DNA from: Oscillospiraceae bacterium
GTDB lineage: Bacteria; Bacillota; Clostridia; Oscillospirales; Oscillospiraceae
Assembly: GCA_021203045.1 (NCBI GenBank)
Contig: JAJQBY010000105.1
Location: forward strand, 1 to 58,538
Direction: 5' to 3'
DNA: 58,538 nt
Position numbers and translations under genes: made by a program. This document shows positions 3,615 to 52,023 of the stretch, one piece after another. Below the pieces are notes generated by a model. It searched no databases, was not told the origin of the DNA, and was given only the letters and a program-made list of their open reading frames with translations. How positions within the stretch are numbered: the first letter of the stretch is position 1; every line of letters starts with the position of its first letter.

Positions 3615-4718
3615 ATGAACGACAAGGACTATATGACCCTGGCCATCTCCCTGGCGGAGAAGGGCCTGGGCTGGACGAACCCCAACCCCATGGTGGGGGC
3701 CGTCATCGTGAAGGAGGGCCGCATCATCGGTCAGGGCTATCACGCCCGGTGCGGCGAGCTCCATGCGGAGCGCAGCGCCCTGCAGGACTGCACGGAGGGC
3801 CCCCGGGGCAGCACCATATACGTCACTCTGGAGCCCTGCTGTCATCAGGGCCGCCAGCCCCCCTGCACGGACGCCCTCCTGGAGGCCGGCATCCGCCGGG
3901 TCGTGATCGGCTCGGACGACCCCAACCCCCTGGTGGCCGGCAAGGGCATCGAAATCCTCCGCAGCCACGGCCTCCGGGTGGAGACCGGCCTGCTGAAGGA
4001 GCAGTGCGACGGGCTGAACTATGTGTTCTTCCACTATATCCAGACCGGCAGGCCCTATGTGGTGATGAAATACGCCATGACCATGGACGGCAAGATCGCC
4101 ACCTATACCGGGGCCTCCCAGTGGATCACCGGGGAGGCGGCCCGGGCCCGGGTCCATCAGGACCGCCACCGCTATGCCGCCATCATGGCGGGGGTGGGCA
4201 CCGTCCTGGCAGACGATCCCATGCTGACCTGCCGCATCCCCGGGGGCCACGACCCCCTCCGGGTCATATGCGACAGCCGCCTGCGCATACCGCCGGACAG
4301 CAATATCGTGAAAACCGCCGGGGACGTGCCCACCGTCATCGCCGCCGTACAGCCTGATGAGACCAAACGGGCCGTCCTGGAGGCCGCCGGGTGCCGGGTG
4401 TGGGACCTGCCGGAGAGGGACGGCCACGTCAGCCTTCCCGCCCTGATGGACCGGCTGGGCCGGGAGCGCATCGACAGCGTCCTTCTGGAGGGGGGCGGGA
4501 CCCTGAACTGGTCCGCCCTGGAAAGCGGCGTGGTCCAGCGGGTGCAGGCGTATATCGCCCCCAAGCTTTTCGGCGGCCCGGGCAAGGCCCCTGTGGGGGG
4601 CGCGGGCGTGGCCCTGCCGTCCCAGGCCTTTATGCTGAAAAGCACCACCGTCACCCCTTTGGGGGACGATTTCCTGCTGGAAAGCGAGGTGGAACAGGAT
4701 GTTCACCGGAATCATTGA
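3615..4718 (+). CDS. ribD: Bifunctional pyrimidine deaminase / uracil reductase
   Basis: RibD performs the second and third steps of riboflavin synthesis: deamination of the diaminopyrimidine made by GTP cyclohydrolase II, then NADPH-dependent reduction of its ribosyl chain. The 367-residue protein has the N-terminal deaminase domain with zinc ligands His50 (HAE, 50-52), Cys75 (EPCCHQG) and Cys84 (PPC). The C-terminal reductase domain starts near residue 146 with YVVMKYAMTMDGKIA. The length is normal for the family. The ATG at 3615 follows a weak AAAGG. It is the first gene behind the FMN riboswitch and overlaps ribE by 20 bases. Confidence 0.95.
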   Translation: MNDKDYMTLAISLAEKGLGWTNPNPMVGAVIVKEGRIIGQGYHARCGELHAERSALQDCTEGPRGSTIYVTLEPCCHQGRQPPCTDALLEAGIRRVVIGSDDPNPLVAGKGIEILRSHGLRVETGLLKEQCDGLNYVFFHYIQTGRPYVVMKYAMTMDGKIATYTGASQWITGEAARARVHQDRHRYAAIMAGVGTVLADDPMLTCRIPGGHDPLRVICDSRLRIPPDSNIVKTAGDVPTVIAAVQPDETKRAVLEAAGCRVWDLPERDGHVSLPALMDRLGRERIDSVLLEGGGTLNWSALESGVVQRVQAYIAPKLFGGPGKAPVGGAGVALPSQAFMLKSTTVTPLGDDFLLESEVEQDVHRNH

Positions 4719-5349
4719 GGAAATGGGCGTCGTCCGGGCCGTGAAGCGGGGGGCCAACTCCTCCCTTCTCTCCATCGGGGCCGATGTGGTCCTGGCCGAT
4801 CTGAAAATCGGGGACAGCGTAGCCGTGAACGGGGTGTGCCTCACCGCCACCACCGTGGACAGCGGCGGCTTCACCGCCGACGTGATGCACGAGACCCTGA
4901 ACCGCTCCTCCCTGGGTGCCCTGTCCGTGGGCAGCCCTGTGAATCTGGAGCGGGCCATGGCCGCCAACGGCCGCTTCGGGGGCCATATCGTCTCCGGCCA
5001 TATCGACGGCACCGGCCGTATCCTGTCCGTCCGGCGGGACGACATCGCCCTGTGGTACACCATAGAGGCGGCCCCCGCCCTGCTCCGGTATATCGTGGAA
5101 AAGGGCTCCATCGCCATCGACGGCATCAGCCTGACCGTGGCCGCCGTCACGGACAGGGATTTTTCCGTCTCCCTGATACCCCATACCGCCAGCGTCACCC
5201 TTCTGGGCCGGAAGCGCCCCGGGGACATCGTGAACCTGGAAACGGATATCATCGGCAAATATGTGGAAAAGCTGATGCAGCCCCAGGAGCCCGCCGCACA
5301 GCAATCAGGCGGCATAACATTAGAATTTCTGGCCGAAAACGGCTTTTAA
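4699..5349 (+). CDS. ribE: Riboflavin synthase (alpha subunit)
   Basis: This enzyme dismutates two molecules of 6,7-dimethyl-8-ribityllumazine to riboflavin. The 216-residue protein begins with the family hallmark MFTGIIEEMG. It consists of two lumazine-binding barrels, the second starting around GGHIVSGHIDG (near residue 95). The start lies inside ribD, so translation of the two is probably coupled. The next 250 bases hold repeat copy R1 rather than a gene. Confidence 0.95.
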   Translation: MFTGIIEEMGVVRAVKRGANSSLLSIGADVVLADLKIGDSVAVNGVCLTATTVDSGGFTADVMHETLNRSSLGALSVGSPVNLERAMAANGRFGGHIVSGHIDGTGRILSVRRDDIALWYTIEAAPALLRYIVEKGSIAIDGISLTVAAVTDRDFSVSLIPHTASVTLLGRKRPGDIVNLETDIIGKYVEKLMQPQEPAAQQSGGITLEFLAENGF

Positions 5350-5354
5350 GCAAT

Positions 5355-5602
5355 CGCCAAAGGCAGGCCTTTGGCGAGGGGGGCAGCGGCCCGACCCGCG
5401 CACTCGGCGTCCGCCGTTGGCGGCCACCTCGCACACTGCACGCGCTAAGAGCCGCGCTTCGCACGGTTGCGCGTTTGCACACCGCCTGCGGGCGGTAGTC
5501 CCGGGCCGATAAGAGTTTTTGTCCACGTACACGCCGCGGCCAAAAACAGATTTAGATTTTATTTCGCCGCTGCGGCGGCGAAACTCTGCGAGGCTTTTTG
5601 CC
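5355..5602 (+). repeat. Structured repeat family 1, copy R1
   Basis: The first of three related elements in the riboflavin locus. It opens with a hairpin CGCCAAAGGC-AG-GCCTTTGGCG (5355-5376). Then come the conserved GCGGCCCGACCCGCGCACTCG, a variable insert, CCCGGGCCGA, CCACGTACACGCCGCGG flanked by T and A runs, a hairpin TTTCGCCGC-TGC-GGCGGCGAAA, and CTCTGCGAGGCTTTTTG. The element ends about 16 bases before the ribBA ribosome site. This copy is longer than the others because of extra inverted sequence at about 5426-5500. Confidence 0.85.
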
Positions 5603-5633
5603 AACCATGATATACTCCAAGGAGGAAATCGCA

Positions 5634-38899: not shown

Positions 38900-40189
38900 T
38901 TACGCCGCATCCATTACCGTTCCCATAAATATCGGGGTGTTGGTCCCGCAGTCTATGAGAAGATATACAAACGGCCGGTTGAGATAGACGGTTTTGGTCT
39001 CCTCCGGGGCTTCCAGGGCGGTTTCCGCCACCATCTCCACCACAGTGGCAGCCCCGGCCTGGGTGCCTCGCTCGTCCACGGCGATATAGGTCTTGTGGAG
39101 CACCCGGGATATGCAGATGTTGCCGTCCTCATATTCCCCCAGGAGGGAGAAGTCGGCCAGGTCAATATCGAAAGCGTCCGTCATACCCATAGCAGCCAGG
39201 GCCTCGCTCAGCTCGGCACTGTATTCGCTGGTGAATTTTGGAATCGCCGCCTCCACAGTGATATCCTGGGCGTTCTCCAGCAGGGCGGTCAGGCCCGCTC
39301 CCGTCAGGGAGGCCACATAGTCGGCCACCGTGACCCCTTCATTGGGCAGCAGGGCCACAAAGGCATAGGCCCCATCCTTATAATATTTAATGAAGCCGGT
39401 GGCGTTTTCGTCCTCCAGATACACGGACTCCTCGGAATACATCAGCTCCGCCTCCCGCACTGTGCCGTCCTCCAGGGTGAAATCGCCGGAGCGCACCTCA
39501 TTTTCCTTATAAATGGTCTGCCACTGGGCATCGAAGGCCAGGGCGTTCACCAGATACATCACCGCGTCGTCGGAGATTTTATCCAGAATATCCTCCACCA
39601 TGCCGTCGGTGTGCTCGCTGACGTAAGAGTTTATCTCCTCAAGGGTCCCCTGGTCGAAGGGGGCCTGATAGATATCCGCGTTATAATAATTCGCGTTCGT
39701 CTGCAAAAATTCCTGCCGGACGGTCAGGCGCTCGTCCTCCCGGAACCAAATGGCGTTAGCCGCCGTCAGCTTATAGTCCTCCCCGCTGGGAAGATTCTCC
39801 ATATAGGCGGAGAGATAGGGGTTCAGGGTCTCCATGGATACCCCGAACACGGCCTCCATCTGGGCAAGGGTATTCTCCGCCGCGCCGTTTGCGGTCATGG
39901 CCAGGGCATACAGCACGGAGACAGGCGATACCAGCGTGTTATCCCCCGCCTGGGCGCACTGCTGAAACAGGCGCACGGCGAAATCCGTCACCGCCTGGGC
40001 CGCGTCCTCTGTTCCGGCGGTGCTGTCCGCGGCCTCTGTGACCATCGGCTCGGCAGTACTGTCCGCGGCCTCTGTGGCCATCGGCTCGGGAGCCACGTCC
40101 TCCATCAGGTCCGCAGCCTGGGTCCTGGCCCCGCATCCGGTCAGCGCCAGCGCCAGGAGCAGAAGCAGGGCAGTCAGTCGCATTTTCAT
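38900..40189 (-). CDS. Serpin-family lipoprotein
   Basis: A 429-residue bacterial serpin (serine or cysteine protease inhibitor) anchored as a lipoprotein. The signal peptide MKMRLTALLLLLALALTGC lipidates Cys19. The start is ATG 40189, with AAAGGAGG ahead at 40200-40207; the longer frame contains that site. A linker with two 12-residue repeats (TEAADSTAEPM type) precedes the serpin body. Family landmarks are NTLVSPVSVLYALAMTANGA, the hinge GTQAGAATVVEM and the terminal signature LNRPFVYLLID..PIFMGTV. The reactive loop lies between the hinge and LNRPF, so protease specificity could be tested there. Gut bacteria use such proteins against host or microbial proteases (inference). Confidence 0.92.
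   Translation of the reverse strand: MKMRLTALLLLLALALTGCGARTQAADLMEDVAPEPMATEAADSTAEPMVTEAADSTAGTEDAAQAVTDFAVRLFQQCAQAGDNTLVSPVSVLYALAMTANGAAENTLAQMEAVFGVSMETLNPYLSAYMENLPSGEDYKLTAANAIWFREDERLTVRQEFLQTNANYYNADIYQAPFDQGTLEEINSYVSEHTDGMVEDILDKISDDAVMYLVNALAFDAQWQTIYKENEVRSGDFTLEDGTVREAELMYSEESVYLEDENATGFIKYYKDGAYAFVALLPNEGVTVADYVASLTGAGLTALLENAQDITVEAAIPKFTSEYSAELSEALAAMGMTDAFDIDLADFSLLGEYEDGNICISRVLHKTYIAVDERGTQAGAATVVEMVAETALEAPEETKTVYLNRPFVYLLIDCGTNTPIFMGTVMDAA
40023..40094 (-). repeat. 36-bp tandem repeat in the serpin linker
   Basis: Two near-identical 36-bp units (40023-40058 and 40059-40094) encode the repeated 12-residue linker segment. This in-frame unit can change copy number without breaking the gene. 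Confidence 0.75.
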
Positions 40190-40265
40190 AGGAAAGAGCC
40201 TCCTTTTTCGTTTTGTCATCTCATAAGACGGAAAAAAGGCAAAAAGGTTCCCGGCCCCGGAAAAA

Positions 40266-41210
40266 TTATCCCATCACACGGAGCCAGTTGTTATAAAACA
40301 GATCCTCCAGCACACTCTCCTCATAGCCCCGGGCGGCCAGAGCGTTCCAGAGAAGATGGATGTCCTGGGCCCCCCTCATGTTCCCGGCAGCGGCGTCGCA
40401 GCCGTCCCAGTCGGCTCCCAGGGCCAGGGTCTTCGCCCCGTCCAGCTCCATGAAATGCTCCACATGGCGGAGGATATCGTCCATGCTGTACGCTCCGCCC
40501 ACAAAGTCCAGCCAGAAATTCAGTCCGGCCACCCCGCCGCTGTCCCGGATGACGATGAACATATCGTCCGTCAGGTTCCGGCTGTGGGGGCAGACGGCCC
40601 GGGCGTTGGAGTGGCTGGCTATCAGCGGCTGCGACCCCAGCCGCTCCAGGTCCCAGAAGCCCTGATCGGACAGATGGGACACATCCAGCAGTATGCCCAG
40701 CTCGTTGGCCCGGCGGACGAATTCCTTCCCCAAGGGGCCAAGGCCCCGGGCCGCCTCGTCCCGATGGGAGCCGGAGAGATAATTGGCGTGGTTCCAGGTG
40801 ATGTTCACAAGCTTCACCCCCCACTGGGCGGCGATGTCCAGCCGTCCCGGGTCGCAGCCCAGCAGCTCGCCCCCCTCGATGGACAGCAGCGCGGCTACCT
40901 TTCCCTCATCGTTGGCGGCCTGTATCTCCGCCCCGGAGCGGCAGGGCATGGCGATGTCCCGGTTTTTTTCCAGCTCCGAGACGAACACCTCCCGCTGGCG
41001 GCAGCATTCATCAAACAGCGTCCCCGGCGGGAATTTATCCCAGTCCGCGAAGATGGCGAACACCTGGGCCGCCTTTTTGAACCCGGTCAGACGGTTCAGG
41101 TCGAGCATCCCGTCGTTTGACCGCAGGCCGACTCCCCTGTTGGCGCAGCGGCTGATCGTATCGCAGTGGCCGTCAAAATAGGGTATCTCTCCTGCAGAAA
41201 AGCGTTTCAT
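40266..41210 (-). CDS. Membrane dipeptidase (peptidase M19)
   Basis: A 314-residue renal-dipeptidase-type metalloenzyme that hydrolyses dipeptides, in some members including D-amino-acid or beta-lactam-like substrates. Zinc ligands are His15 and Asp17 (FDGHCDT), the bridging Glu of LLSIEGGEL, the His of DVSHLSD and of ASHSNAR, and a final Asp in GADWDG. The start is ATG 41210 (MKRFSAGE), about 10 bases behind GGAGGGAGGAA. Upstream in-frame Met codons lack a ribosome site. No signal peptide is visible, so it is cytoplasmic. It follows the serpin's region on the same strand but with separate signals. Confidence 0.9.
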   Translation of the reverse strand: MKRFSAGEIPYFDGHCDTISRCANRGVGLRSNDGMLDLNRLTGFKKAAQVFAIFADWDKFPPGTLFDECCRQREVFVSELEKNRDIAMPCRSGAEIQAANDEGKVAALLSIEGGELLGCDPGRLDIAAQWGVKLVNITWNHANYLSGSHRDEAARGLGPLGKEFVRRANELGILLDVSHLSDQGFWDLERLGSQPLIASHSNARAVCPHSRNLTDDMFIVIRDSGGVAGLNFWLDFVGGAYSMDDILRHVEHFMELDGAKTLALGADWDGCDAAAGNMRGAQDIHLLWNALAARGYEESVLEDLFYNNWLRVMG

Positions 41211-41310
41211 ATTGAACAATTCCTCCCTCCTAATCCTCATAGGCAGTATATCAAACTGACGATTTTCCGTCAACGGCGGATAGCCCCTTTTCTTTTTGCG
41301 GATTTCCTGT

Positions 41311-41316
41311 TATAAT
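41311..41316 (+). promoter_or_regulatory. -10 element upstream of the enoate reductase
   Basis: TATAAT preceded by TGT (extended -10), about 60 bp before the ATG at 41376. No convincing -35 is present. Confidence 0.5.
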
Positions 41317-41375
41317 GTCTATGAGTGAACGTCATAAAATAAATTACCTGCATTGATTTAGGAGGACACGATGAT

Positions 41376-43391
41376 ATGAGCGCACCGAAGTACCCATACC
41401 TGTTTGAACCGCTGAAGATCCGGGGCTTCACCCTGAAGAACCGGCTGGAGGCGTCCAACTCCCTGCCCCACTTTCTCCAGGGACCGGAGCCGTATCCGGC
41501 GGAGAGCGTTATCGCCCACTACTGCAACAAGGCCCGCAGCGCCGGTATCGTCACCTGCATGGGCATCAACAACTTCACCCGGGGCAAGCAGCTGCCCATG
41601 GATATGGACTTCGGCCACTTCCCGGATTTCGATCTCTATGACACCAACTGCCAGAACTATCTGCTCCAGCTGTCGGACAATATCCACTACTATGACTCCA
41701 TCGCCTGCATGGCGATCTTCGTCGGCCCGCCCTCTGCCTATCCTCTGATGGTCCCCAAGGGCAACCAGGCCCACGCTTCCGCATTTGAGCAGACAAAGTC
41801 TCTCAACGCCCCGCCCCCGGCGGAATTTGACATCGAGCTGATTCCCGGCCACGACCCGGTGGAGTCCTATACCGAGGAGCAGCTGGAAAAGATCGCCCAG
41901 TCCTATGCGGAGCAGGCCGGTATCCTTCAGGTGCTGGGCTTCGATATGCTGTCCATCCATATGTGCTACCGGGCCAACCTCCCCGCACAGTTCTTCTCCC
42001 CCATCACCAACCACCCAACCCATAAGTTTGGCGGCAGCCTCGAAAACCCTATGCGCTTCCCCCTGATGTGCCTGGAGCGGGTGCGCCAGAAGGTGGGCAA
42101 GAACTTCCTGGTGGAGATCGAGTGGAGCGCCGTGGACGGGCCGGACGGCTTCTCCATCGAGGACAGCGCCGCCTTCCTGAATGAGGCCAAGAAATACATA
42201 GACATCGTCCAGCTCCGCACCGATGAGGTGGACGCGGCCCATCCCACCAGCTTCAACCTGGAGGAGACCCCCTTCCTGAAATACGGCGAATACATGAAGC
42301 AGCACGTCCCCGGCCTGGTCATCGGGGTCATCGGCGGCTTCCACTATCCCGACACCTGCGAGAAGGCCCTGGCCGACGGAAAGGCCGATCTGATCTGCGC
42401 CGCCCGCGCCTTCGTCTCCAACCCCAACTACGGCGACCTGCTCCAGGCCGGCCGGGCGGACGATATCGTCCCCTGCCTGCGGTGCAACAAGTGCCACGGC
42501 CGGGGCGAGCACGACCCCTTCGTGTCCGTCTGCTCCGTGAACCCCATGGTGGGCCTGGAGCACCGGCTGGGCCAGCTGGTGCAGAAGCCCACCCGCTCCA
42601 AGAAGGTAGCCGTCATCGGCGGCGGCCCCGCCGGCATGCGCTGCGCCCTGTATCTCAAGGAGCGGGGCCATACCCCTGTGCTGTATGAGGCGCTGCCCGT
42701 CCTGGGCGGCCAGATCGTCCATGCGGACTATGCCGACTTCAAGTGGACCCTGCGGGACTATAAAAACTGGCTGATCTATCAGCTGGACAAGCAGGGCATC
42801 GAATACCATGTGAACACCAAGGCCACCCCGGAGATGATCGCCGCGGCAGAGTTCGACGCCGTGGTGGTGGCAAACGGCGCGGAGATGCTAACCCTGCCCA
42901 TTCCCGGCGCGGACAAGGATAAGCTGGTCTACGCCCTGGAGGCCTTCGCCCATCCCGAAAAGCTGGGTGAGCGTGTCGTGGTCATCGGCGGCGGCGAGGT
43001 AGGCGTGGAGACCGCCCTTTACATCGCCAAGAAGGGCCACCACACCACCGTCGTGGAGATGCGGGATCAGCTCTCCGCCGACTCCACCGCCATCCACTAT
43101 TACTCCATGTTCAAGGAGGCCTGGGAGGCGGAGCCCAACTTCCATGGCATCACCGGCGTAAAGGTAGCCGCCATCGGCCCGGATTCCGTGTCCTATACGG
43201 ATAAGGAGGGCGCGACGCACTCCATCCCCGCCGATTCTGTGGTCATGTGCGCCGGCCGCGTGCCCCGTCAGGACGAGGCCCTGGCCTTCTACGGCGCCGC
43301 TCCGGAGTTCTATATGATCGGCGACTGCAAGAAGCCCGCCTCCGTGCAGCAGCTGAACCGGCACGCCTGGAGCGTTGCGAACAGGATATAA
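41376..43391 (+). CDS. NADH:flavin oxidoreductase / 2-enoate reductase family (BaiCD/BaiH-like architecture)
   Basis: A 671-residue three-part flavoenzyme. An old-yellow-enzyme barrel (about 1-365) is followed by an iron-sulfur segment with CLRCNKC and CSVNP. A FAD/NAD-binding module then contains VAVIGGGPAGMRCA near residue 414 and VVVIGGGEVGVETA. The barrel motif that normally reads HxxHGYL is IHMCYRANLPAQFFSP here, so an active-site residue differs. Relatives reduce activated C=C bonds of cinnamate, bile acid intermediates, steroids or isoflavones; the substrate cannot be assigned. AGGAGG (41360-41365) sets the start at 41376. No operon partner. Confidence 0.88.
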   Translation: MSAPKYPYLFEPLKIRGFTLKNRLEASNSLPHFLQGPEPYPAESVIAHYCNKARSAGIVTCMGINNFTRGKQLPMDMDFGHFPDFDLYDTNCQNYLLQLSDNIHYYDSIACMAIFVGPPSAYPLMVPKGNQAHASAFEQTKSLNAPPPAEFDIELIPGHDPVESYTEEQLEKIAQSYAEQAGILQVLGFDMLSIHMCYRANLPAQFFSPITNHPTHKFGGSLENPMRFPLMCLERVRQKVGKNFLVEIEWSAVDGPDGFSIEDSAAFLNEAKKYIDIVQLRTDEVDAAHPTSFNLEETPFLKYGEYMKQHVPGLVIGVIGGFHYPDTCEKALADGKADLICAARAFVSNPNYGDLLQAGRADDIVPCLRCNKCHGRGEHDPFVSVCSVNPMVGLEHRLGQLVQKPTRSKKVAVIGGGPAGMRCALYLKERGHTPVLYEALPVLGGQIVHADYADFKWTLRDYKNWLIYQLDKQGIEYHVNTKATPEMIAAAEFDAVVVANGAEMLTLPIPGADKDKLVYALEAFAHPEKLGERVVVIGGGEVGVETALYIAKKGHHTTVVEMRDQLSADSTAIHYYSMFKEAWEAEPNFHGITGVKVAAIGPDSVSYTDKEGATHSIPADSVVMCAGRVPRQDEALAFYGAAPEFYMIGDCKKPASVQQLNRHAWSVANRI

Positions 43392-43392
43392 A

Positions 43393-43504
43393 ATACCGAC
43401 TGCGGCAGGTCTTTTTCCGCCATGCCGCGCTGCGCCTCCTCGACGTACCACGGTACGCCTTCGTCGGCACATCACGACCTGACGAAAAAATCCCTCTCCC
43501 TGCA
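43393..43504 (+). repeat. Dispersed repeat family 2, copy A
   Basis: It begins TACCGACTGCGGCAGGTC and ends AAAAATCCCTCTCCCTGCA. In the middle lies a hairpin CGTACC-AC-GGTACG (43444-43457), and the outer ends are partly complementary (TTTTTCCG.. and ..CGAAAAAA). It shares order and motifs with copy B at 49695-49803. No gene is seen in the 270-base gap 43392-43661 apart from this element. Confidence 0.75.
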
Positions 43505-43661
43505 TGGACTGACTTCCCCATTTGGTCCGTCCGGCGCACCTTATTCTGCGTTTTGTATAGCGCGGGGCTTTTGGACTTATACAAATCACACAAATAGGCG
43601 GGTTTTTTGGCCCGCCTATTTTTCATTGCATTTCTCATCATAAGAAATTATAATAGCAGAC

Positions 43662-44381
43662 ATGGAATATTTTATCGTCTTCATAGGCTGCGTTTTCGGC
43701 AGCTCGCTGAATATGGTGGTGGGCTTCGGCTTTGGGATATTCTGCATGATGTTCTTTCCCTATGTCATCGGCTCCACCCTGGGGGCGGCGGCGGTCATCA
43801 ACATGGTAACGGCGGTGCAGGCCACCATCGCCACCATCCACTACCGGAAGCACGTCAACTGGCGGCTGCTCATCACGCCCCTGGCGACCTATTTTGTGGT
43901 GTCCTGGGTGGTCGTTCACATCGCCTCCGGGCTGAACAACGATATGCTGAAGCTGATGCTGGGCGTGCTGCTGATCGCCCTCAGCGTTTATTTCATCTTC
44001 ATCGCCAAGCGGGTGCGGATGAAGGCCAGCGTAGGAAACGGCATTCTGGCCGGCGGGCTGGGCGGGGTCATGAGCGCCCTGTTCGCCATCGGCGGGCCGC
44101 CGGTCAGCCTGTACTTCTCCTCCGCCACAGAGGAAAAGGAGGACTACCTGGCCACCATACAGGGATATTTCATGATCTCCAACACCTATGTGGTAATTCT
44201 GCGCTTCACCAGCGGCGTGGTCACCGGCCGCGTCCTCCTGTGCGCCGCCGTGGGTCTGGCCGGGATGCTGCTGGGAAGCCTGTTGGGGAACACCATCTTC
44301 AAAAAAATCAATGCCGACACCATGCGCAAGGCTATTTACGTCATGATGGCCGTCAGCGGCGTGGTAATGCTTCTTACATAA
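43662..44381 (+). CDS. TSUP-family membrane transporter (TauE/SafE type)
   Basis: A 239-residue membrane protein with about seven or eight hydrophobic helices. It shows the family's two-fold internal design, with GFGFGIFCMMFFP in the first half and GGLGGVMSALFAIGGPP in the second. TSUP proteins move sulfite, sulfoacetate, other organosulfonates or unrelated anions. Its location 1.3 kb before the sulfotransferase operon makes a sulfur-compound role attractive, but it is separated by its own terminator and another gene. No strong ribosome site is visible before the ATG. Confidence 0.85.
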   Translation: MEYFIVFIGCVFGSSLNMVVGFGFGIFCMMFFPYVIGSTLGAAAVINMVTAVQATIATIHYRKHVNWRLLITPLATYFVVSWVVVHIASGLNNDMLKLMLGVLLIALSVYFIFIAKRVRMKASVGNGILAGGLGGVMSALFAIGGPPVSLYFSSATEEKEDYLATIQGYFMISNTYVVILRFTSGVVTGRVLLCAAVGLAGMLLGSLLGNTIFKKINADTMRKAIYVMMAVSGVVMLLT

Positions 44382-44404
44382 CGCCTGCATATCCCGTCTC
44401 GTCT

Positions 44405-44435
44405 GGCGCCCCGCCTGGGGCGCCGGGCTTTTTTT
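44405..44435 (+). terminator. Terminator after the TSUP gene
   Basis: GGCGCCCC (44405-44412), loop GCCT, GGGGCGCC (44417-44424), then GGGC and a run of seven T. Confidence 0.85.
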
Positions 44436-44481
44436 GACGCAGACCCTCCAAGGATATTACATCCGCTTTTCAGACCCCATG

Positions 44482-44510
44482 TTGACAAATCTTCTTTTTC
44501 CCCTTATGCT
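44482..44510 (+). promoter_or_regulatory. Promoter of the DUF554 gene
   Basis: TTGACA (44482-44487), 17-bp spacer, TATGCT (44505-44510). A further TATAAT (44568-44573, preceded by TGTGC) and an inverted repeat GCTCATA-AATAC-TATGAGC (44590-44608) lie in the long leader. Confidence 0.6.
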
Positions 44511-44650
44511 AAGCAATAGTTTCCCTTTGCCGTCAAAAAATCAGTGTGCAAAGACCGGATTATGTGCTATAATAGATGGGATTGTGCTGGGCTCATAAAT
44601 ACTATGAGCTATAAGATTATTAAAACCATTATTTACCATCCGGAGAGAGT

Positions 44651-44704
44651 ATGAACAGACAACTGATTTATCCGGCTCCCGCGCACCCCCGGGGAGCGCT
44701 TTGA
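44651..44704 (+). CDS. Possible 17-residue leader peptide
   Basis: ATG 44651 to TGA 44704 encodes MNRQLIYPAPAHPRGAL, with GGAGAGAG directly upstream. It ends three bases before the DUF554 start. A GCTCCC/GGGGAGC stem spans its second half. It may be a translated leader controlling the downstream gene, or chance. Confidence 0.3.
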   Translation: MNRQLIYPAPAHPRGAL

Positions 44705-44707
44705 GCC

Positions 44708-45487
44708 ATGTGGAAATATTTCGGCGTTTTTTTGAATATGGCCACCGTCCTGCTGGGCGGGAGCATAGGGCTTTGCCTCCGCCGCCGGAAAAAGGCCCCC
44801 AGGCCGGCCCCTGACGGTCTGCCGGAGCGGGAGAAGCTGACGGACTCCATGATGGCCTGCCTGGGCCTGTGCACCATATTTGCCGGTGCCTCCGGGCTGG
44901 TGGGCATAGAGAGCGGCGTTCAGGCTCTCATCGCCGTGGCCTCCCTGGTGGGCGGCTATCTCATCGGCTGGCTGCTGCGCCTGGATGACCGGGTAAACCT
45001 GCTGGGGGACCGGGTGGTGGCCCGGATGGGCGGCGGTGACGGCCAGAACAGCCCTGCGGAGGGCTTTGTGACCGCCTGCATGCTGTTTTGCATCGGCTCC
45101 ATGACCGTTCTCGGCTCCTTTGAGAGCGCCGCCAATCCGGCGGGCTCCCTGCAGCTGGACTGCCACACCACCCTGCTGATAAAATCCCTGATGGACTTCG
45201 TCTCCTCCACCTGTCTTGCGGCCACCTTTGGCGTCTCCGTGCTGCTGTCCGCCGGATTCATCCTGCTGGTGGAGGGCTCCCTGGTGCTTCTGGCCTCCGC
45301 CATCCAGCCCTTTCTGGAGAGCATCGGCACGCTGCCCGTCATCGACTGCGTGGGAGCGCTGATTCTGCTGGCCATCGCCATGAACCTGCTGGGCATCCGG
45401 AAGCTGAAAACGGTGGACTATCTCCCCGCCCTGTTCCTCCCCATCCTGATCTGCTGGCTCCTGACCCTATGGGGCGTCGCCGTATGA
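44708..45487 (+). CDS. DUF554 family membrane protein
   Basis: A 259-residue membrane protein with about seven helices. It matches the DUF554 (YdfK/YqgA) pattern: an N-terminal GVFLNMATVLLGGSIG, the block FCIGSMTVLGSFESA, LLIKSLMDFVSS, and a C-terminal AIAMNLLGIRKLK. The family is conserved in many bacteria without an established function; a transport role is often assumed. GGGGAG precedes the ATG at 44708. It is transcribed from its own promoter and ends 48 bases before the sulfotransferase promoter. Confidence 0.88.
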   Translation: MWKYFGVFLNMATVLLGGSIGLCLRRRKKAPRPAPDGLPEREKLTDSMMACLGLCTIFAGASGLVGIESGVQALIAVASLVGGYLIGWLLRLDDRVNLLGDRVVARMGGGDGQNSPAEGFVTACMLFCIGSMTVLGSFESAANPAGSLQLDCHTTLLIKSLMDFVSSTCLAATFGVSVLLSAGFILLVEGSLVLLASAIQPFLESIGTLPVIDCVGALILLAIAMNLLGIRKLKTVDYLPALFLPILICWLLTLWGVAV

Positions 45488-45534
45488 TAATGTTAAGAAT
45501 ACGTAAATAATCGGGCCCTTTCCCCCCACGGGAA

Positions 45535-45563
45535 TTGACAAGCGCCTGTGACCCATGTATGAT
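45535..45563 (+). promoter_or_regulatory. Promoter of the sulfotransferase-cysD-cysNC operon
   Basis: TTGACA (45535-45540), 17-bp spacer, TATGAT (45558-45563). The predicted start near 45570 falls inside the palindrome at 45564-45579. The leader of about 146 bases contains hairpins at 45618-45639 (TATATTCTG/CAGAATATA) and 45687-45703 (GCGGG/CCCGC), the latter next to the ribosome site. Confidence 0.85.
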
Positions 45564-45579
45564 ATTAACGAACGTTAAT
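45564..45579. promoter_or_regulatory. Operator-like palindrome at the sulfotransferase promoter
   Basis: ATTAACG-AA-CGTTAAT, perfect 7-bp arms, immediately after the -10. Typical placement for a repressor site. No regulator gene is adjacent, and it differs from the TetR boxes at 10.98-11.09 kb. Confidence 0.7.
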
Positions 45580-45715
45580 TTTAGGAGCCTGGGTTTAGGT
45601 TGAGTTTAGATTCCCGGTATATTCTGCTCTCAGAATATAAAGCCCTTATCAGAACAAGATCAAACCCCGAAAAACACATATATTGAGCGGGTTTCATTCC
45701 CGCGCCGGAGCTTCT

Positions 45716-46882
45716 ATGAATAACGAAAAACGACCCCGAATTCTCTTTCTGTCCCACTATCTGCTGGGCGTCCGGTTCGACAACTGGATTCGCCTGCTGT
45801 GGCGCTGCCGGTTCCGCATCCGCCCCAGCAAAATCCCGGAGGCGCTTCTCATCACCCTGGTCAGCCTGGTTCTGTTTCCCTTCGCCCTGCTGGAGGGGCT
45901 GGTCTGCGCCATCCCCCTGCACCGGACGAAGATCACCAAGGACCCGGTGTTCGTCCTGGGCCACTGGCGCAGCGGCACCACCTTCCTGCAAAACCTGATG
46001 AGCCGGGACCCCCAGTTCGACTGGTTCAGCCCCATGAACACGGCCATGTTCTCAAACTATGTGCTCCTGGGCTGGATTCTGCGGGACGGGGTGAAAAGCG
46101 GCATCAAGGACGCCCGCCCCATGGATAACGTCCAGTACACCATGGACCTGCCCATGGAGGAGACCTTCGCCTTGGGGAATTTCACACCCTTCATTCTGGA
46201 CCATCTGCTGGCTTTCCCCCTGGTGTGGGAGAAATACGTGCCCTATGTGTTCGTAGATCAGCTGCCGCCCCGGCAGCAGCGGCACTACCGGCGGGCCTAT
46301 GCCCACATCCTGAAAAAGAAGTCCATGACCGGCGGAGGCCGGCAGCTGGTGCTGAAAAGCCCGGACAACACCGCCCGGACCGACATGCTCCGGGAGATGT
46401 ATCCGGACGCCAAGTTCGTAAATATCTACCGGGCCCCCTACGCCGTGGTGGACAGCACGGTGAACATGATAAAGAGCCAAATAAATCTGGTAACGCTGAC
46501 AAAGCTGCCCGATGTGGACGTGGACGATCTGCTGGAGGATATGGTCATCCATCGCATGACCGTGCCCATGTATAAAAAGCTGATCGCCGAGGAGCCCACC
46601 TTCAAGCCCCACCACTTCGTCAGCGTGAAATATGAGGACTTCGTCACCGACCCGGAGCGGTATCTGCGGTATATCTATCAGGAGCTGGAGCTGGACGGCT
46701 TTGAGAACGCCCTGCCCCGCCTGCGCTCCTTCATCGCCGGACAGAAGACCTATCAGACCAACCGGCGCAGCATCCGCCCCAGGCTGCGGGAGAAGATCAA
46801 TCAGAATCTTGGCTTTTACTTTGAACATTACGGCTATGAAATGGTGCCCAGCGACCCCATGAAAGCCGTGGAAGGACTGTAA
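45716..46882 (+). CDS. PAPS-dependent sulfotransferase (Sulfotransfer_3 type)
   Basis: A 388-residue sulfotransferase. The PAPS 5'-phosphosulfate loop is [14 protein letters not shown] (81-94), the 3'-phosphate motif is [13 protein letters not shown] with Arg239 and Ser247, and the characteristic [15 protein letters not shown] lies at about 211-225. A hydrophobic stretch at 41-66 may bind the membrane or a lipophilic acceptor. ATG 45716 is preceded by GGAG (45707-45710). Only two bases separate it from cysD, so PAPS supply and use are made together. The acceptor is unknown. Related gut-bacterial clusters sulfonate sterols, which is one hypothesis. Confidence 0.9.
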
Positions 46883-46884
46883 TT

Positions 46885-47763
46885 ATGGATCATTTGGACA
46901 AGCTGGAGGCAAAAAGCGTACATATCCTGCGGGAGGCCTACGCCGCCTTTGACAATATGTGTATGCTCTGGTCCATCGGCAAGGACTCCACCGTGCTGCT
47001 CTGGCTGGCACGGAAGGCCTTTTACGGCCATGTGCCCTTCCCCCTGGTGCATATAGACACCCACTATAAAATCCCCGAAATGATCGAATACCGGGACAGG
47101 CTGGCCAAGGAAATGGGCCTTTACATGATCTACGGCGAGAACAAGGAGGCCCTGGACAACAAGACCACCTTCCCGGACGGGACGGTGTCCCATGTGGAAT
47201 GCTGCCGCCTTCTGAAGACCGAGGCCCTGGCCCATACCCTGGACGGCTCCTGGCCCCGCTACCGGCTGAACCTCCAGACCGGGGAATACGAGCGGGACAC
47301 CAATACCGACCGGTACACCGGCGTCATCGTAGGCGCCCGGGCGGACGAGGAGGGTAGCCGCTCCAAGGAGCGGTATTTCTCCCCCCGGGACCAGAAAAAC
47401 GACTGGGACCTGGACGATCAGCCCCCGGAATTCTGGAATCAGTTCAAAACTGACTTCGCTCCCGGCACCCATGTGCGCATCCATCCCCTGCTGGACTGGA
47501 CGGAGCTGAACGTATGGGAATACATCGAGCGGGAGAACATCCCCGCCGTCAGCCTCTACTATAACCAGGGAGACGGCACCCGCTACCGCAGTCTGGGCTG
47601 CGCCCCCTGCACAAAGCCCATAAAATCGGAGTCCCACAACGTGCACGAGATCATCGAGGAGCTTCGCACCGGCGCGCTGTCCTCCATAGCGGAGCGCTCC
47701 GGCCGCGCCCAGGACGCCGAGGACGGCGGCCTTGAAACGCTCCGCCGCAACGGCTATATGTGA
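46885..47763 (+). CDS. cysD: Sulfate adenylyltransferase subunit 2
   Basis: CysD catalyses formation of adenylyl sulfate from ATP and sulfate, driven by the CysN GTPase. The 292-residue protein belongs to the ATP-pyrophosphatase group, with the loop SIGKDST (30-36). It also has [28 protein letters not shown] and the C-terminal [14 protein letters not shown], all typical of CysD. It starts two bases after the sulfotransferase stop and is followed by cysNC after 16 bases. No PAPS reductase or sulfite reductase gene is nearby, so the product is likely used for sulfonation rather than cysteine synthesis (inference). Confidence 0.95.
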
Positions 47764-47779
47764 GACGGAGGTGACTGCT

Positions 47780-49642
47780 TTGGACAACGAGGAAATACTG
47801 AACATCGTGACTGTGGGCCATGTGGACCACGGAAAATCCACCGTAGTGGGCCGCCTGCTGGCGGACGCCAACGGCCTGCCGGATGGGAAGCTGGAGGCTG
47901 TGCGGGAAAACTGCCGCCGCAACTCCAAGCCCTTTGAATACGCCTTTTTGCTGGACGCGCTGAAAAACGAGCAGGCCCAGGGCATCACCATCGACACCGC
48001 CCGCTGCTTCTTCCACACGGACAAGCGCCAGTACATCATCATCGACGCGCCCGGCCATATTGAGTTTTTGAAAAACATGGTCACCGGCGCCTCCCGGGCG
48101 GAGGCCGCTCTGATGGTCATAGACGCGGCCCGGGGCGTGGAGGAGAACACCCGCCGCCATGGCTATTTTCTCTCCATGCTGGGCATCCGGCAGGTCTCCG
48201 TGCTGGTGAACAAAATGGATCTGGTCGGCTACGAGCAGCGGGTCTTTGAGGATATCAAGGCGGAGATGTCCACCTTCCTGGATAAAATAGACATCCACCC
48301 CCTGTCCTTCATCCCCGTCTCCGGCATGGAGGGAGACAACATCGCCAACCGCTCCCAGCGGATGAGCTGGTACAGCGGCCCCACCATGCTCCAGCAGATG
48401 GACGATTTCGCCACCGTTCCCCCGCCGGAGCGGGCCAGCTTCCGCATGCCGGTGCAGGGGGTATACAAATTCACCGCCAACAACGACAGCCGCCGCATCG
48501 TGGCGGGGACCGTGGAATCCGGCTCCGTCCGGGCCGGGGATGAGATTGTGTTCTATCCCTCCGGCAAAAAGACCAGCGTCAAGAGCCTGGAGGTGTTCAA
48601 CGCCCCCACGCCGGAGCGCTTCGAGGCAGGCATGGCCGCAGGCTTCACCATGAACGAGCAGATATTCGTCCGCCGGGGAGAGATCGCCTGCCGCCGGGAT
48701 GAGCCCGCCCCCCAGGTGGGCGTCCGCCTGAAGGCAAATGTGTTCTGGCTGGGCAAGCAGCCCTTTGACCGCAGCCGCCGGTACTACTTCAAATGCGGCA
48801 CCGCCAAGGTGGAGATGGCTCTGGAGAGCATCGAGCGCATCGTGAACGCCTCCACCCTGTCCGCCGGACAGCGGCAGTACTGCGAGAAAAACGAGGTATG
48901 CGAGTGCGTCATCACCCTGGAACGGCCCGTGGCCTTTGACCTGGCCGGGACAGTGGACGCCACCAGCCGCTTCGTCATCGTGGATGGGTATGAGATCGCC
49001 GGGGGCGGCATCATCACCCAGGCCATGGAGGAATATGACTACAACACCCGGAACATCCGCTGGTCCTCCGGCGGCGTCACCGGGGAGGAGCGCCGCCGCA
49101 TGTCCGGCATGAAGGGCCTGGTGGTCTGGATGACCGGTCTCTCCGGCGCGGGCAAGACCACCATCGCCCAGGAGGTGGAGCGCCGCCTGCTGGATGCGGA
49201 CGTGCTGGCCTATGTGCTGGACGGGGACAGGGTCCGCCGGGGCCTGTGCGCCGATCTGGGCTTTTCCGATGCGGACAGGACGGAGAATATCCGCCGGGTG
49301 GGCGAGCTCTCGAACCTGTTCCGGGACGCCGGCATGGTGACCCTGGTGACCCTCATAAGCCCCTTCGCCGCCAGCCGGGAACAAGCCCGCAAGATCGTTG
49401 GCCGGGACTTCATGGAGGTCTATGTAAAGGCCAGCGTGGAGACCTGCAAGGCCCGTGACCCGAAAAATCTCTATAAAAAGGCCCTGGATGGCCATATCCC
49501 CAACTTCACCGGCCTGTCCTCCCCCTATGAGCCCCCCACGAACCCCGATCTGGTACTGGATACGGAGAAATGGAACGAGGAGGAATGCGTGGAGGCCCTG
49601 ACCGCAGCCATAATGGCTCGTCTGGAAGACAAAACAATTTAA
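47780..49642 (+). CDS. cysNC: Fused sulfate adenylyltransferase subunit 1 / APS kinase
   Basis: A 620-residue fusion. The N-terminal CysN GTPase has GHVDHGKST (13-21), DAPGH (89-93) and NKMD (144-147). The C-terminal CysC kinase, from about residue 444, has the P-loop [10 protein letters not shown], then DGDRVRRGL and [11 protein letters not shown]. Together with CysD it converts sulfate to PAPS. The start is TTG 47780, eight bases behind GGAGG (47767-47771). An in-frame GTG at 47771 overlaps that site. It is the last gene of the sulfotransferase operon and is followed by a strong terminator at 49652. Confidence 0.95.
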
Positions 49643-49651
49643 AAAGCTAGC

Positions 49652-49695
49652 GAGGGATTATATCAAAACAGCGGTTTTGACATAATCCCTCTTTC
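49652..49695 (+). terminator. Terminator of the sulfotransferase operon
   Basis: Arms of 18 bp (GAGGGATTATATCAAAAC against GTTTTGACATAATCCCTC) with one mismatch, loop AGCG, then TTTCG. Directly followed by repeat copy B. Confidence 0.85.
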
Positions 49696-49803
49696 GTACT
49701 GCGGCGGGTCTTTTGTCCGCTGGACGTCGTTGCGGCTCCTTGACGTACTGATGTACGCCTGCGTCGCCGCGCCTAGCCAGCGAACAAAATCCCTCGCCCT
49801 GCA
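49695..49803 (+). repeat. Dispersed repeat family 2, copy B
   Basis: It begins GTACTGCGGCGGGTCTTTTG and ends AACAAAATCCCTCGCCCTGC. The outer arms TTTTGTCCGCTGG and CCAGCGAACAAAA pair. An inner hairpin CGTAC-TGAT-GTACG (49744-49757) replaces the CGTACC/GGTACG of copy A while keeping the pairing. The rest of the gap to 49987 is A+T-rich with a TATACT -10 candidate at 49938-49943. Confidence 0.75.
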
Positions 49804-49987
49804 TAATCGGACAGCCTGAATTTTGGGATTGGGGGGTATAATTTCTCGCTGTTCGTAATCGAACACTCTAATATTAGTCACAATACTTTTTTACTATAAC
49901 CCATCTTTTTCTTTTAGCATCTTTTTGGGGTTTGTGGTATACTGACCCTATCCTGTTAAAAAAGTAATGAAATTAGGAGGCTATCAT

Positions 49988-50986
49988 ATGAAACGAATCA
50001 TTGCGACTGTATTAGCGCTGACTCTGTGCCTTTCCGGCCTGGCGCTGGGGGCCTGGGCCTCATCAGAGGAACCGTCCGCATCCGGGGAATTCAGTCTCAC
50101 CGACCGGCAGAACGGCCGGACAGGGGGCGGCTCCGTGGACAAGAGCGACGACGAGGAGCTGGCCGCCCTGTTGGCGGAGGTAGAGGAAAAATTCCAGCAG
50201 CTCGACTATCAGGACGAGGAGACAGGCAGGAGCTTTTCCTATAATCTGTTCGTGCCGGAGGACTACGACGAGACCCAGGCCTATCCCCTGGTGCTGTTCA
50301 TCCCCGATTCCAGCGTGGTCGGCGGCGAGACCACGGACGCCCTGGAGCAGGGCTACGGGGCCCTGGTATGGGCCACGGAGGAGGATCAGGAAAAGCACCC
50401 CTGCTTCGTTCTGGCCCCGGAATACCCGGAGAACATCCTGGACGGTGAGGAGGACGTGACAGACTATGTGGCGGCCACCCTGAATCTGCTCGCCGCCCTG
50501 CAGGAGACCTACAACATCGACGAAAACCGCCTTTACATCACCGGGCAGTCCATGGGCTGCATGACAGCCCTGTATCTCAACGGCACCTATCCCGATCTGT
50601 TCGCCGCCAGCCTCTATGTGGACGGCCAGTGGCCGGTGGAGATCCTTGCCGCCCTGGAGGAGCAGCCCTTCTTCTATTTTGCGGCGGAGGGAGATGAAAA
50701 GGCCTCCCAGGGCATGGCCAACGTCATGGCCATGTTCGATGAGGACGGCGTGGCCTACGGTCAGGCCCGGCTGAACGCCAAGGACGATACTGAGGTTATT
50801 GAGGAGACCGTCCAGACCCTGATCGACGAGGGATATCTGGCAAACTTCATCGCCTGGGAGGAGGGCAGCGTGTTGCCGGACGGCATGGATGCCGCCTCCA
50901 CCGGCAGCGAGCATATGTATTCCTTCGACCATGCCTATAAGATCAGCGCCGTCCGGGACTGGCTGTTCCAGCAGGTGAAGGAGTAA
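49988..50986 (+). CDS. Secreted alpha/beta-hydrolase (esterase-like)
   Basis: A 332-residue exported protein with a signal peptide (MKRIIATVLALTLCLSGLAL..GAWA) and a charged linker. The alpha/beta-hydrolase domain resembles feruloyl-esterase/PHB-depolymerase or peptidase-like esterases (YNLFVPEDYDETQAYPLVLF). The nucleophile elbow is GQSMGC, and a candidate catalytic His lies in SFDHAYK near the end. ATG 49988 is preceded by AGGAGG (49976-49981); the longer frame contains that site. It is monocistronic. The natural substrate (plant esters, peptides or polyesters) is not readable from sequence. Confidence 0.85.
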   Translation: MKRIIATVLALTLCLSGLALGAWASSEEPSASGEFSLTDRQNGRTGGGSVDKSDDEELAALLAEVEEKFQQLDYQDEETGRSFSYNLFVPEDYDETQAYPLVLFIPDSSVVGGETTDALEQGYGALVWATEEDQEKHPCFVLAPEYPENILDGEEDVTDYVAATLNLLAALQETYNIDENRLYITGQSMGCMTALYLNGTYPDLFAASLYVDGQWPVEILAALEEQPFFYFAAEGDEKASQGMANVMAMFDEDGVAYGQARLNAKDDTEVIEETVQTLIDEGYLANFIAWEEGSVLPDGMDAASTGSEHMYSFDHAYKISAVRDWLFQQVKE

Positions 50987-51009
50987 GGACCAAAAAATAG
51001 TATAGCTGA

Positions 51010-51045
51010 GAAAAGGGGCGGTTTTTCGGGACCGGCCCCTTTTCT
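51010..51045 (+). terminator. Terminator after the secreted hydrolase
   Basis: GAAAAGGGGC and GCCCCTTTTC form the outer stem, with an inner GGT/ACC stem and TTTT within the right arm. Confidence 0.85.
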
Positions 51046-51121
51046 GTTCAGGGCAGGATAGCAAGATAGCTAAAATTTTCATTTTCATGCGCTGAGGTAT
51101 TGCAATTCAGGGCAAAATATG

Positions 51122-51137
51122 CTTAAATATATTTAAG
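51122..51137. promoter_or_regulatory. Perfect palindrome upstream of the E2-like gene
   Basis: CTTAAATATATTTAAG, a 16-bp perfect palindrome. It overlaps a possible -10 (TAAATA) of a weak promoter whose -35 is TTGCAA (51100-51105). A likely operator. Confidence 0.5.
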
Positions 51138-51165
51138 TTTTTTCCCTGCAAAGGAGGCTATTAAA

Positions 51166-52023
51166 ATGGGCAGAGTTGACGGTACCCGCGTAAGAGATGA
51201 AGGGCCGATGTATTACCTCATCCCCCACTTTATGACCGAACGCCATGACTCCATGAACATGACCACGATCGACATTCCCATAGAGCCAATGCGGAAATAT
51301 CTGAATGCCAAGCGGCGGGAGGGCATCCGCATCAACAACATGACACTAATCCTGGCGGCGTACGTCCAGATGGTATCGGAGTTTCCCTCCCTGAACCGCT
51401 TTGTGGCCCGGCGGCGGATATTCCAGCACAACGACATCGCTGTTTCCCTGGTGGTGCTGCGTCCCGGCGAGCGGGCCAACAACAGCACCATGGGCAAGCT
51501 CTACTTCGACCCGGAGGACACAGTCTTCGACGTTCAGCGGAAGATGGACGAATATATGGAGAAAAACTCCTCCAATGCAGAAGAAGATGCAAACGGTCTG
51601 GATAAGACCATGGGAGTACTGTGCAGACTGGGCGGCCTGCTGGATGTGGCCGGATGGCTGCTTAGATTCATGGATAAGCACGGACTGCTGCCAAAGTTCC
51701 TGGTAGATGTCAGCCCCTTCCACGCCAGCCTCCTGCTGACGAACCTGACCAGCATCCGCACGAACCACATCTATCACCACGTCTATGACTTCGGCACCAC
51801 CTCCATTGCCCTGGCCATGGGCAATATACGGGATGTGCCAAAGCGGGGCAAGGGCGGGGAGATCGAGCTTGTCCGCTGCCTGCCCATCGGCGTGGTCATG
51901 GACGAGCGCATCTGCTCCGGCCATTACTTCGCCCTGGCCTTCGCCCGGCTGAAGGAGCTGCTGTCAAATCCGGAGATCATGGAGCAGCCTGTCAGCGCCC
52001 GCCACCTGAAGGTAGTAAAGTAA
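51166..52023 (+). CDS. E2/chloramphenicol-acetyltransferase-fold protein with altered catalytic motif
   Basis: A 285-residue protein similar to the catalytic domain of 2-oxo acid dehydrogenase E2 subunits, but without lipoyl or peripheral-binding domains and without E1 or E3 neighbours. Recognisable parts are MTLILAAYVQMVSEFPSLNR, GKLYFDPEDTVFDVQRKMDE, NLTSIRTNHIYHHVYDFGTT and the C-terminal DERICSGHYFALAFARLKE. In E2 enzymes that last motif is DHRxxDG. Here the catalytic His is Glu and the Asp is Ser, so ordinary acyltransfer is unlikely. Similar stand-alone proteins occur in Clostridia without known function. AAGGAGG (51151-51157) supports the ATG at 51166. Confidence 0.75.
   Translation: MGRVDGTRVRDEGPMYYLIPHFMTERHDSMNMTTIDIPIEPMRKYLNAKRREGIRINNMTLILAAYVQMVSEFPSLNRFVARRRIFQHNDIAVSLVVLRPGERANNSTMGKLYFDPEDTVFDVQRKMDEYMEKNSSNAEEDANGLDKTMGVLCRLGGLLDVAGWLLRFMDKHGLLPKFLVDVSPFHASLLLTNLTSIRTNHIYHHVYDFGTTSIALAMGNIRDVPKRGKGGEIELVRCLPIGVVMDERICSGHYFALAFARLKELLSNPEIMEQPVSARHLKVVK

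Follow-up and report, generated by a model that had tools for sequence, protein, structure and literature searches.

The stretch analysed here, contig JAJQBY010000105.1 of an Oscillospiraceae bacterium (58,538 nucleotides, hereafter the window), belongs to a genome of 2.59 Mb in 144 contigs that is 97.6% complete (G000). It carries at positions 45716–49642 three forward-strand genes in the order sulfotransferase, cysD and cysNC, separated by gaps of 2 and then 16 bases. As judged from sequence, this is a genuine three-gene operon for making activated sulfate, and the order, strand and spacing given in an original prediction, made from the letters alone, agree with these coordinates. The first gene (45716–46882, ATG start) encodes a predicted sulfotransferase of 388 residues dependent on 3'-phosphoadenosine 5'-phosphosulfate (PAPS), which scores 104.6 bits against Sulfotransfer_3 (PF13469; cut-off 27). 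The second (46885–47763) encodes CysD, the small subunit of ATP sulfurylase (292 residues), which exceeds the NF003587 cut-off (348 against 195 bits) and stays below that of the narrower TIGR02039 (243.7 against 396.6). The third (47780–49642, 620 residues) starts at a TTG at 47780, or alternatively at a GTG at 47771, and reads as a fusion of CysN, the GTPase subunit of ATP sulfurylase, with the adenosine 5'-phosphosulfate (APS) kinase CysC. It matches the Pfam families APS_kinase (205.7 bits) and GTP_EFTU (152.2 bits) and the NCBIfam models for CysN (340.7 bits, cut-off 336) and APS kinase (226.7 bits, cut-off 138.7), and falls below the cut-off of the fused model PRK05506 (615 against 715). 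The family names first proposed are thus borne out by both profile collections, and it is from these families that the three enzyme activities are presumed.

The PAPS made here probably serves sulfonation. In the window's own genome the only match to the PAPS-reductase family PF01507 is CysD itself, and the sulfite reductase family PF01077 has no match in this 97.6% complete assembly; across the genus, PF01077 was found in one of 35 genomes, itself 77% complete with 6% contamination. Assimilatory sulfate reduction would call for a reductase beyond CysD together with a sulfite reductase, and neither was matched. The absence of both reductases, noted earlier for the cluster, therefore extends to the whole genome; the cysH- and cysI-type genes elsewhere that would have put this PAPS to assimilatory use were searched for, and nothing apart from CysD was matched. 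Since no reductive branch is seen, the PAPS would most simply be meant for the sulfotransferase, which supports the view that the cluster is dedicated to sulfonation.

Residues G82, R85, G87, T88, T89, R239 and S247 of the sulfotransferase are invariant in 53 sequences. We take them to be the 5'-phosphosulfate and 3'-phosphate binding motifs, both of which had been recognised at the outset. A structure prediction run with AlphaFold2 on 53 sequences returned a sulfotransferase fold (predicted local distance difference test, pLDDT, 91.4; predicted template modelling score, pTM, 0.90) with one long helix at residues 37–63. All 17 Protein Data Bank matches at E ≤ 0.001 are described as sulfotransferases, the closest being mycobacterial STF9 (2z6v, TMq 0.62) and STF1 (2zq5, TMq 0.56), followed by two polyketide-synthase domains and then by TPST structures. 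The hydrophobic segment from which a lipophilic or membrane acceptor had been proposed is real and coincides with the predicted helix (best 19-residue Kyte-Doolittle mean 2.38). It is only suggestive of such an acceptor, however, because the clostridial family as a whole shares it (1.2–2.5), as do some other sequences.

Recurrence of the cassette in Clostridia

Sulfotransferase relatives were taken as the best 80 of 590 from a scan of a collection of species genomes, and 21 of these 80 have CysD and CysNC in the same locus, all of them in Clostridia or Bacillota (in one, L025, CysNC is cut by the contig end). With the window and the genomes G015 and G051 this gives 24 cassettes, 19 of which lie outside the window's subclade; where the record titles name a taxon, it is Oscillospiraceae, Eubacterium, Roseburia, Clostridiales, Clostridia or Bacillota. 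The cassette is therefore widespread, and an origin confined to a single genus was rejected. The first reading had held that a clostridial equivalent of the Bacteroides sulfonation clusters would be notable; the cassette is recurrent in Clostridia rather than singular.

In the 19 cassettes outside the subclade the sulfotransferase is 40–52% identical to that of the window, and CysD is 77–90% identical in 17 of them. The other two, L029 and L030, are near copies of each other whose CysD and CysNC are of another type (36% identical to the window's). In both loci (L029, 10004–12705; L030, 5809–8510) the sulfotransferase, a CAT-fold gene and a two-component system are present, as though the PAPS genes had been exchanged. 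Ribosomal protein L11 is 55–90% identical across the 15 cassette genomes compared. In 11 of these, CysD shows the higher identity of the two proteins, and in four it shows the lower, slightly so in L026 and L057 and through the other CysD type in L029 and L030. The comparison suggests either transfer or strong constraint, and does not separate them.

Solitary clostridial sulfotransferases also occur, for instance in Eubacterium ramulus and E. oxidoreducens, with no CysD or CysNC in the locus fetched. An APS kinase over the cut-off is present in 23 of the 25 genomes of this kind, and 14 of the 25 loci fetched from them hold a distant CysNC (35–38%), so PAPS could come in trans. The L031 and L066 genomes carry a cassette-like CysD elsewhere (82% and 76%), and CysD matches at E 1e-30 or better were found in 40 of 391 genomes of the class. 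Many of the sulfotransferase kin come from metagenome-assembled genomes (MAGs) with goat, sheep, deer or rumen samples in the record title; among the matches listed, the titles of remoter homologues (30–37%) point to free-living planctomycetes, cyanobacteria and archaea.

Direct repeats and proposed two-component control

A two-component system whose genes lie on another contig appears to turn the operon on. Between promoter P1 (TTGACA-17-TATGAT, 45535–45563, forward strand, 11 of 12 consensus bases) and the sulfotransferase gene lies a direct repeat, GTTTAG-N5-GTTTAG, with an 11-bp period (45593–45609, forward strand), which we propose as a response-regulator box. It matches once in the window and never in 100 shuffles, and the aligned promoters of G000, G031 and G015 have GGTTTAGGTTGAGTTTAG in common, followed by a G in the latter two. 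The original prediction had allowed for one promoter. P1 is indeed present, and its TTGACA is retained, by eye, in all five subclade relatives (G031, G015, G004, G027 and G028), but the direct repeat had been missed, and as a second regulatory element stands between P1 and the gene, that description is probably incomplete.

The exact pattern, derived from the operon promoters alone, was searched in 11 genomes: the five with an assembled sulfotransferase, G004, and five congeners without the cassette. It occurs twice in the window's own genome, before the operon and before a response regulator gene on contig C24. All nine matches fall within the five sulfotransferase genomes: five lie on the operon side, and the other four stand 62–64 bp before the match to a C24-type regulator. 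Both sites are present in G000 and three relatives; the fourth relative, G031, has the operon-side site in exact form and carries the repeat upstream of its regulator in a two-mismatch form. No exact match was found in the five congeners or in G004, and a reversed-pattern control gave three matches over the 11 genomes together. By chance, roughly 0.1–0.3 matches per genome would be expected.

The window contains no response-regulator or kinase gene, and the genomes were therefore searched. On C24 of G000, both on the reverse strand, lie a response regulator with Response_reg and Trans_reg_C domains (4920–5609) and a HisKA/HATPase histidine kinase (3853–4923), that is, a receiver and winged-helix regulator with its cognate kinase, as in OmpR/PhoB-type systems, with direct-repeat sites before both the regulator gene and the putative target. 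Response-regulator or kinase genes lie in the cassette locus itself in 13 of the 24, all outside the subclade (13 of 19). Regulators of the C24 type and of a second type, C64, 49–50% identical to that of L029, occur in G000, G015, G027 and G028, and one in G031. All five genomes with an assembled sulfotransferase thus have such a regulator, and the best matches in the five congeners without the cassette reach 39–43%. In a tree of 35 regulators, a branch with support 100/99 separates the cassette regulators, together with C24 and C64, from 13 further regulators of the genus; one more sequence of the genus, G026_C66, groups with the former on a long branch. The C64 regulator (L166, 2758–3414, reverse strand), from that same branch, has no GTTTAG repeats in the 260 aligned bases upstream.

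The other cassettes carry, by eye, direct repeats such as GTTCAC at the same 11-bp spacing. The recognition-helix region of C24 differs from that of the cassette regulators, as does the repeat, and the two may have changed together. In a shuffle test for which the motif was chosen by eye on the same data and the better of two tests was taken (leaving out L019, L020, L058 and L063, near contig ends), repeats precede the sulfotransferase at p < 0.05 in 16 of 19 cassettes and in all three subclade members, as against two of 28 clostridial loci without CysD and CysNC, one of which is L031; L021, L030 and L057 did not reach this level. Because that motif had been chosen on the data it was tested on, a matrix was trained on four loci and 14 others were scored over their whole length on both strands, G051 being left out and the solitary loci lying outside this run. 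For 10 of the 14, the top-scoring site falls no more than 230 bases ahead of the sulfotransferase gene, and for three the second-best site does (L029, L035 and L057, the best site of L057 preceding its divergent regulator gene); L030 was missed, and the lead in L021 is thin (10.6 against 10.4). In the part of the window from 40001 to 52000, the best two-unit site is the repeat at 45593 (score 16.9, next 12.3). With the shared repeats, the kinship of the regulators and this held-out motif, the earlier description of the operon as regulated gains more support than a reading of the window could have given it.

Other elements of the promoter region are less well defined. By analogy with the response-regulator promoter, where the repeat is followed after 10 bp by TATGAT, the −10 box of an activated promoter P2 may be TATATT (45618–45623) or TATTCT (45620–45625), on the forward strand. 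A palindrome just 3' of the P1 −10 box (ATTAACG-AA-CGTTAAT, 45564–45579) is a weakly supported candidate for a second operator; it reads ATTAACA-TC-TGTTAAT in G031 and G004 and was not seen in the promoter alignments of G015, G027 and G028, and as main operator it was rejected, with such a palindrome in three of the six subclade genomes. A hairpin near 45618–45639 folds, yet is not retained, by eye, in the aligned relatives. At the other end, the single terminator foreseen after the operon corresponds to a terminator-like hairpin at 49652–49691 (folding z = −6.2), whose place is taken in G027, G015 and G028 by a hairpin of other sequence; its T-run is better on the reverse strand, on which the scan found it. 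In G028, contigs break just 5' of the sulfotransferase start codon (L100, 8675–8725, and the outer end of L012) and carry inverted ends resembling GTGTCAATAG...GTGTAAAC on both sides, by eye as if an insertion sequence lay between promoter and gene.

Neighbouring genes

Subclade genomes carry an inserted block of some 5.7 kb between a DUF554 gene (44708–45487, forward strand) and a gene for a CAT/E2-fold protein (PF00198; 51166–52023, forward strand). By their coordinates these two genes adjoin each other, with no cassette between, in 21 of 29 congeners outside the subclade. The block comprises the operon and, outside the operon, an esterase-like alpha/beta-hydrolase gene (PF00756, PF00326; 49982–50986, forward strand) whose product has a signal peptide by sight and is 92–95% identical in the other five subclade genomes. 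The sulfotransferase was found in five of the six subclade genomes. The sixth, G004 (64% complete), probably has it too, because its CysNC is present (95%) and its contig ends inside the promoter repeat.

A CAT-fold gene also lies near 13 of the 24 cassettes and has no match in 59 other loci. As a cassette-specific partner it was nonetheless rejected, being widespread among relatives and adjoining DUF554 in congeners without the cassette. In the aligned family the usual HxxxDG reads DERIC[SGD]G (DERIASG in one member), and usual catalysis is doubtful because this motif is replaced; in L039, a repeat site also precedes the divergent CAT-fold copy. A TauE-family gene (43662–44381), considered as the operon's sulfate transporter, was set aside with no match in related loci; a different TauE-like gene lies 3' of CysNC in L049 and L056 (with a Pfam match for the latter). 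A flavoenzyme (41376–43391), considered as a steroid partner, was dropped as well, having no match in the stretches of seven relatives, only some of which reach far enough upstream; it resembles BaiCD and bilirubin reductase (299 bits against a cut-off of 825). On the reverse strand, 38900–40219 resembles, by sight, a secreted serpin.

Proposed role and known systems

We consider it probable, if by no wide measure, that the operon is an inducible sulfonation unit with a lipophilic membrane acceptor, its expression set by the C24 two-component system. The genes, the lack of a reductive-branch match, the recurrence of the cassette, the two repeat places shared per genome and the kinship of the regulators are computed; the enzyme activities, binding and activation, signal and acceptor are what we infer from them. 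CysD and the CysN part would convert sulfate and ATP to APS, the CysC part would phosphorylate APS to PAPS, and the sulfotransferase would pass the sulfonate on to a hydroxyl group of a lipophilic acceptor located in the membrane or at its surface. Cassette kinases with complete N termini have two hydrophobic segments with a short gap, and in the C24 kinase the hydrophobic profile merges both (residues 14–83, a short loop being read by eye). With a hydrophobic N terminus and almost no extracytoplasmic loop, this kinase probably senses the state of the membrane. The C24 regulator would then bind the GTTTAG repeats upstream of its own gene and of the operon, activating the latter; many other Clostridia have genes for a system of this kind close to the cassette. 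Our best guess for the acceptor is a lipid of the cell envelope itself or a membrane-dissolved amphiphile; a free sterol seems less likely.

Several observations weigh against this proposal. No regulator or kinase is seen near 11 of the 24 cassettes, some of them on short contigs, and weak kinase or regulator matches (24–28% identity) occur in three of 59 other loci. Because the presence of the regulator follows the subclade, co-occurrence alone argues weakly; G004, 64% complete, has no C24-type match, and G026 has a regulator of the same branch with no sulfotransferase match. In G027 and G028 the operon-side repeat sits on the DUF554 contig and the sulfotransferase on another. The candidate P2 −10 box is poor in sequence, and P1 might by itself suffice for constitutive expression of the operon. 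Packing of the hydrophobic helix could be within the protein instead of in a membrane, none of the neighbour genes identified points to the acceptor, and the CAT-fold gene or a paralogue is present in 74 of 99 relatives.

A broader and more tentative version of the proposal, which we hold possible without favouring it, is that Clostridia of gut and rumen have in common a module spread by horizontal transfer, in which a membrane-sensing system detects an envelope-active amphiphile or the state of the envelope and induces both a PAPS supply reserved for the module and a membrane-associated sulfotransferase. Its acceptor would have diversified by lineage, and operator and recognition helix would have changed together (GTTCAC with RTVDxHIKRLREK, GTTTAG with ETVTVHIGRLRRR). 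If true, Bacillota would possess a lipid-sulfonation response that can be induced.

Among the alternatives, the best placed, though unlikely, is that a BT_0416-like enzyme sulfonates host or dietary sterols or bile acids from the gut. Yao et al. (2022) reportedly described a steroid sulfonation cluster in Bacteroides, and the operon logic is the same, with PAPS genes beside a PAPS-dependent sulfotransferase; the sulfotransferases are homologous, with a common sequence stretch, the window's has the hydrophobic segment, and the goat, sheep, deer and rumen titles of many kin would suit a gut substrate. Against this, two loci with the Bacteroides gene order CysQ-permease-CysC-CysD-CysN-sulfotransferase (L214 and L215; translations by sight, CysN and sulfotransferase also by tblastn) have sulfotransferases 29–30% identical to the window's, below some planctomycete and archaeal ones (33–35%), and among 395 Bacteroidota genomes drawn around one known holder of a homologue, 18 match, the best being that same genome (34%). 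In a quick tree of 61 rows, a clostridial branch of 36 rows has support 97 (the clostridial L062 lying outside it); L214 and L215, standing in for BT_0416, group outside it with other Bacteroidota and an archaeal sequence. Their hydrophobicity before the DPVF motif is only 0.47 and 0.57, with no hydrophobic helix, the window's operon has another gene order with neither permease nor CysQ, and distant homologues belong to free-living organisms. The close parallel to the Bacteroides sterol cluster first drawn is not supported, and as read from sequence the analogy is weak.

Somewhat more doubtful is a detoxifying role, with a phenol or another soluble small molecule as acceptor. Induction through a sensor kinase would suit a stress response, and a sulfotransferase diverging far more (40–52%) than CysD (77–90%) is what differing acceptors would lead one to expect, but an acceptor in the membrane agrees better with the conserved hydrophobic helix and with a membrane kinase that lacks a ligand domain, and cytosolic SULT structures match worse (TMq 0.27–0.36 among the matches listed) than STF9 and STF1. 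It is less likely again that the operon is constitutively expressed from P1, with repeats that belong elsewhere and no two-component control: P1 is near-consensus with a conserved −35 box, but the two repeat sites per genome lie at these two promoters, and the held-out motif result also speaks against this reading. Least likely is that the acceptor is a glycan or a protein, namely an envelope polysaccharide or a tyrosine, for although TPST follows directly on the mycobacterial enzymes and the two polyketide-synthase domains in the fold search, its TMq and that of 3-OST are only 0.32–0.40, and a Pfam search with eight genes neighbouring the cassette, taken from five loci, gave no glycosyltransferase or capsule gene, most neighbours being without identification.

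A recurrent, sensor-controlled clostridial cassette would add a second phylum whose members could produce sulfated lipids or steroids. It offers concrete handles, namely a defined candidate operator, a named regulator pair and an expressible three-gene unit; the inducing signal, if found, would point to the acceptor. By title and the start of the abstract, in a search that covers the subscription literature thinly, no paper on the clostridial cassette or its two-component control was found. In the literature searched, one source characterises a PAPS-linked gut sulfonation cluster in Bacteroides, BT_0411–0416, in the order CysQ-permease-CysC-CysD-CysN-sulfotransferase (PMC9417993), and another finds homologues of PAPS-dependent sulfotransferases by BLAST across further gut genera (PMC10932419).

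The operon is like BT_0411–0416 in joining dedicated genes for PAPS synthesis to one for a PAPS-dependent sulfotransferase, and both sulfotransferases belong to one broad family. It is unlike that cluster, where CysC and CysN are separate and CysQ (which we take to be BT_0411) and a permease are included, in its order of sulfotransferase, CysD and CysNC, its apparent two-component control, and a sulfotransferase outside the BT-type branch as represented by two loci of the same order in place of BT_0416. Mycobacterial STF9 and STF1 are the closest folds and also the top sequence matches, yet only 17% identical. With the CysD-CysN operons of other Clostridia it shares the CysD subtype (69–78% identical in the 27 fullest matches); there, a PAPS-reductase-like stretch lies beside CysD in 11 of the 29 loci fetched besides the window's, whereas here the genome has no such reductase gene and CysC is fused. 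Three of these operons (L227, L234 and L239) have a separate CysC-like gene beside CysD, and in L227 a small reading frame starts, by sight, like a sulfotransferase. A further comparison is with OmpR/PhoB-type regulons, which it resembles in the Response_reg and Trans_reg_C architecture, the HisKA/HATPase kinase and repeats spaced by one helical turn before a −10 box, and from which it differs in its sulfonation target and in comprising, by the exact pattern, only two promoters in its own genome.

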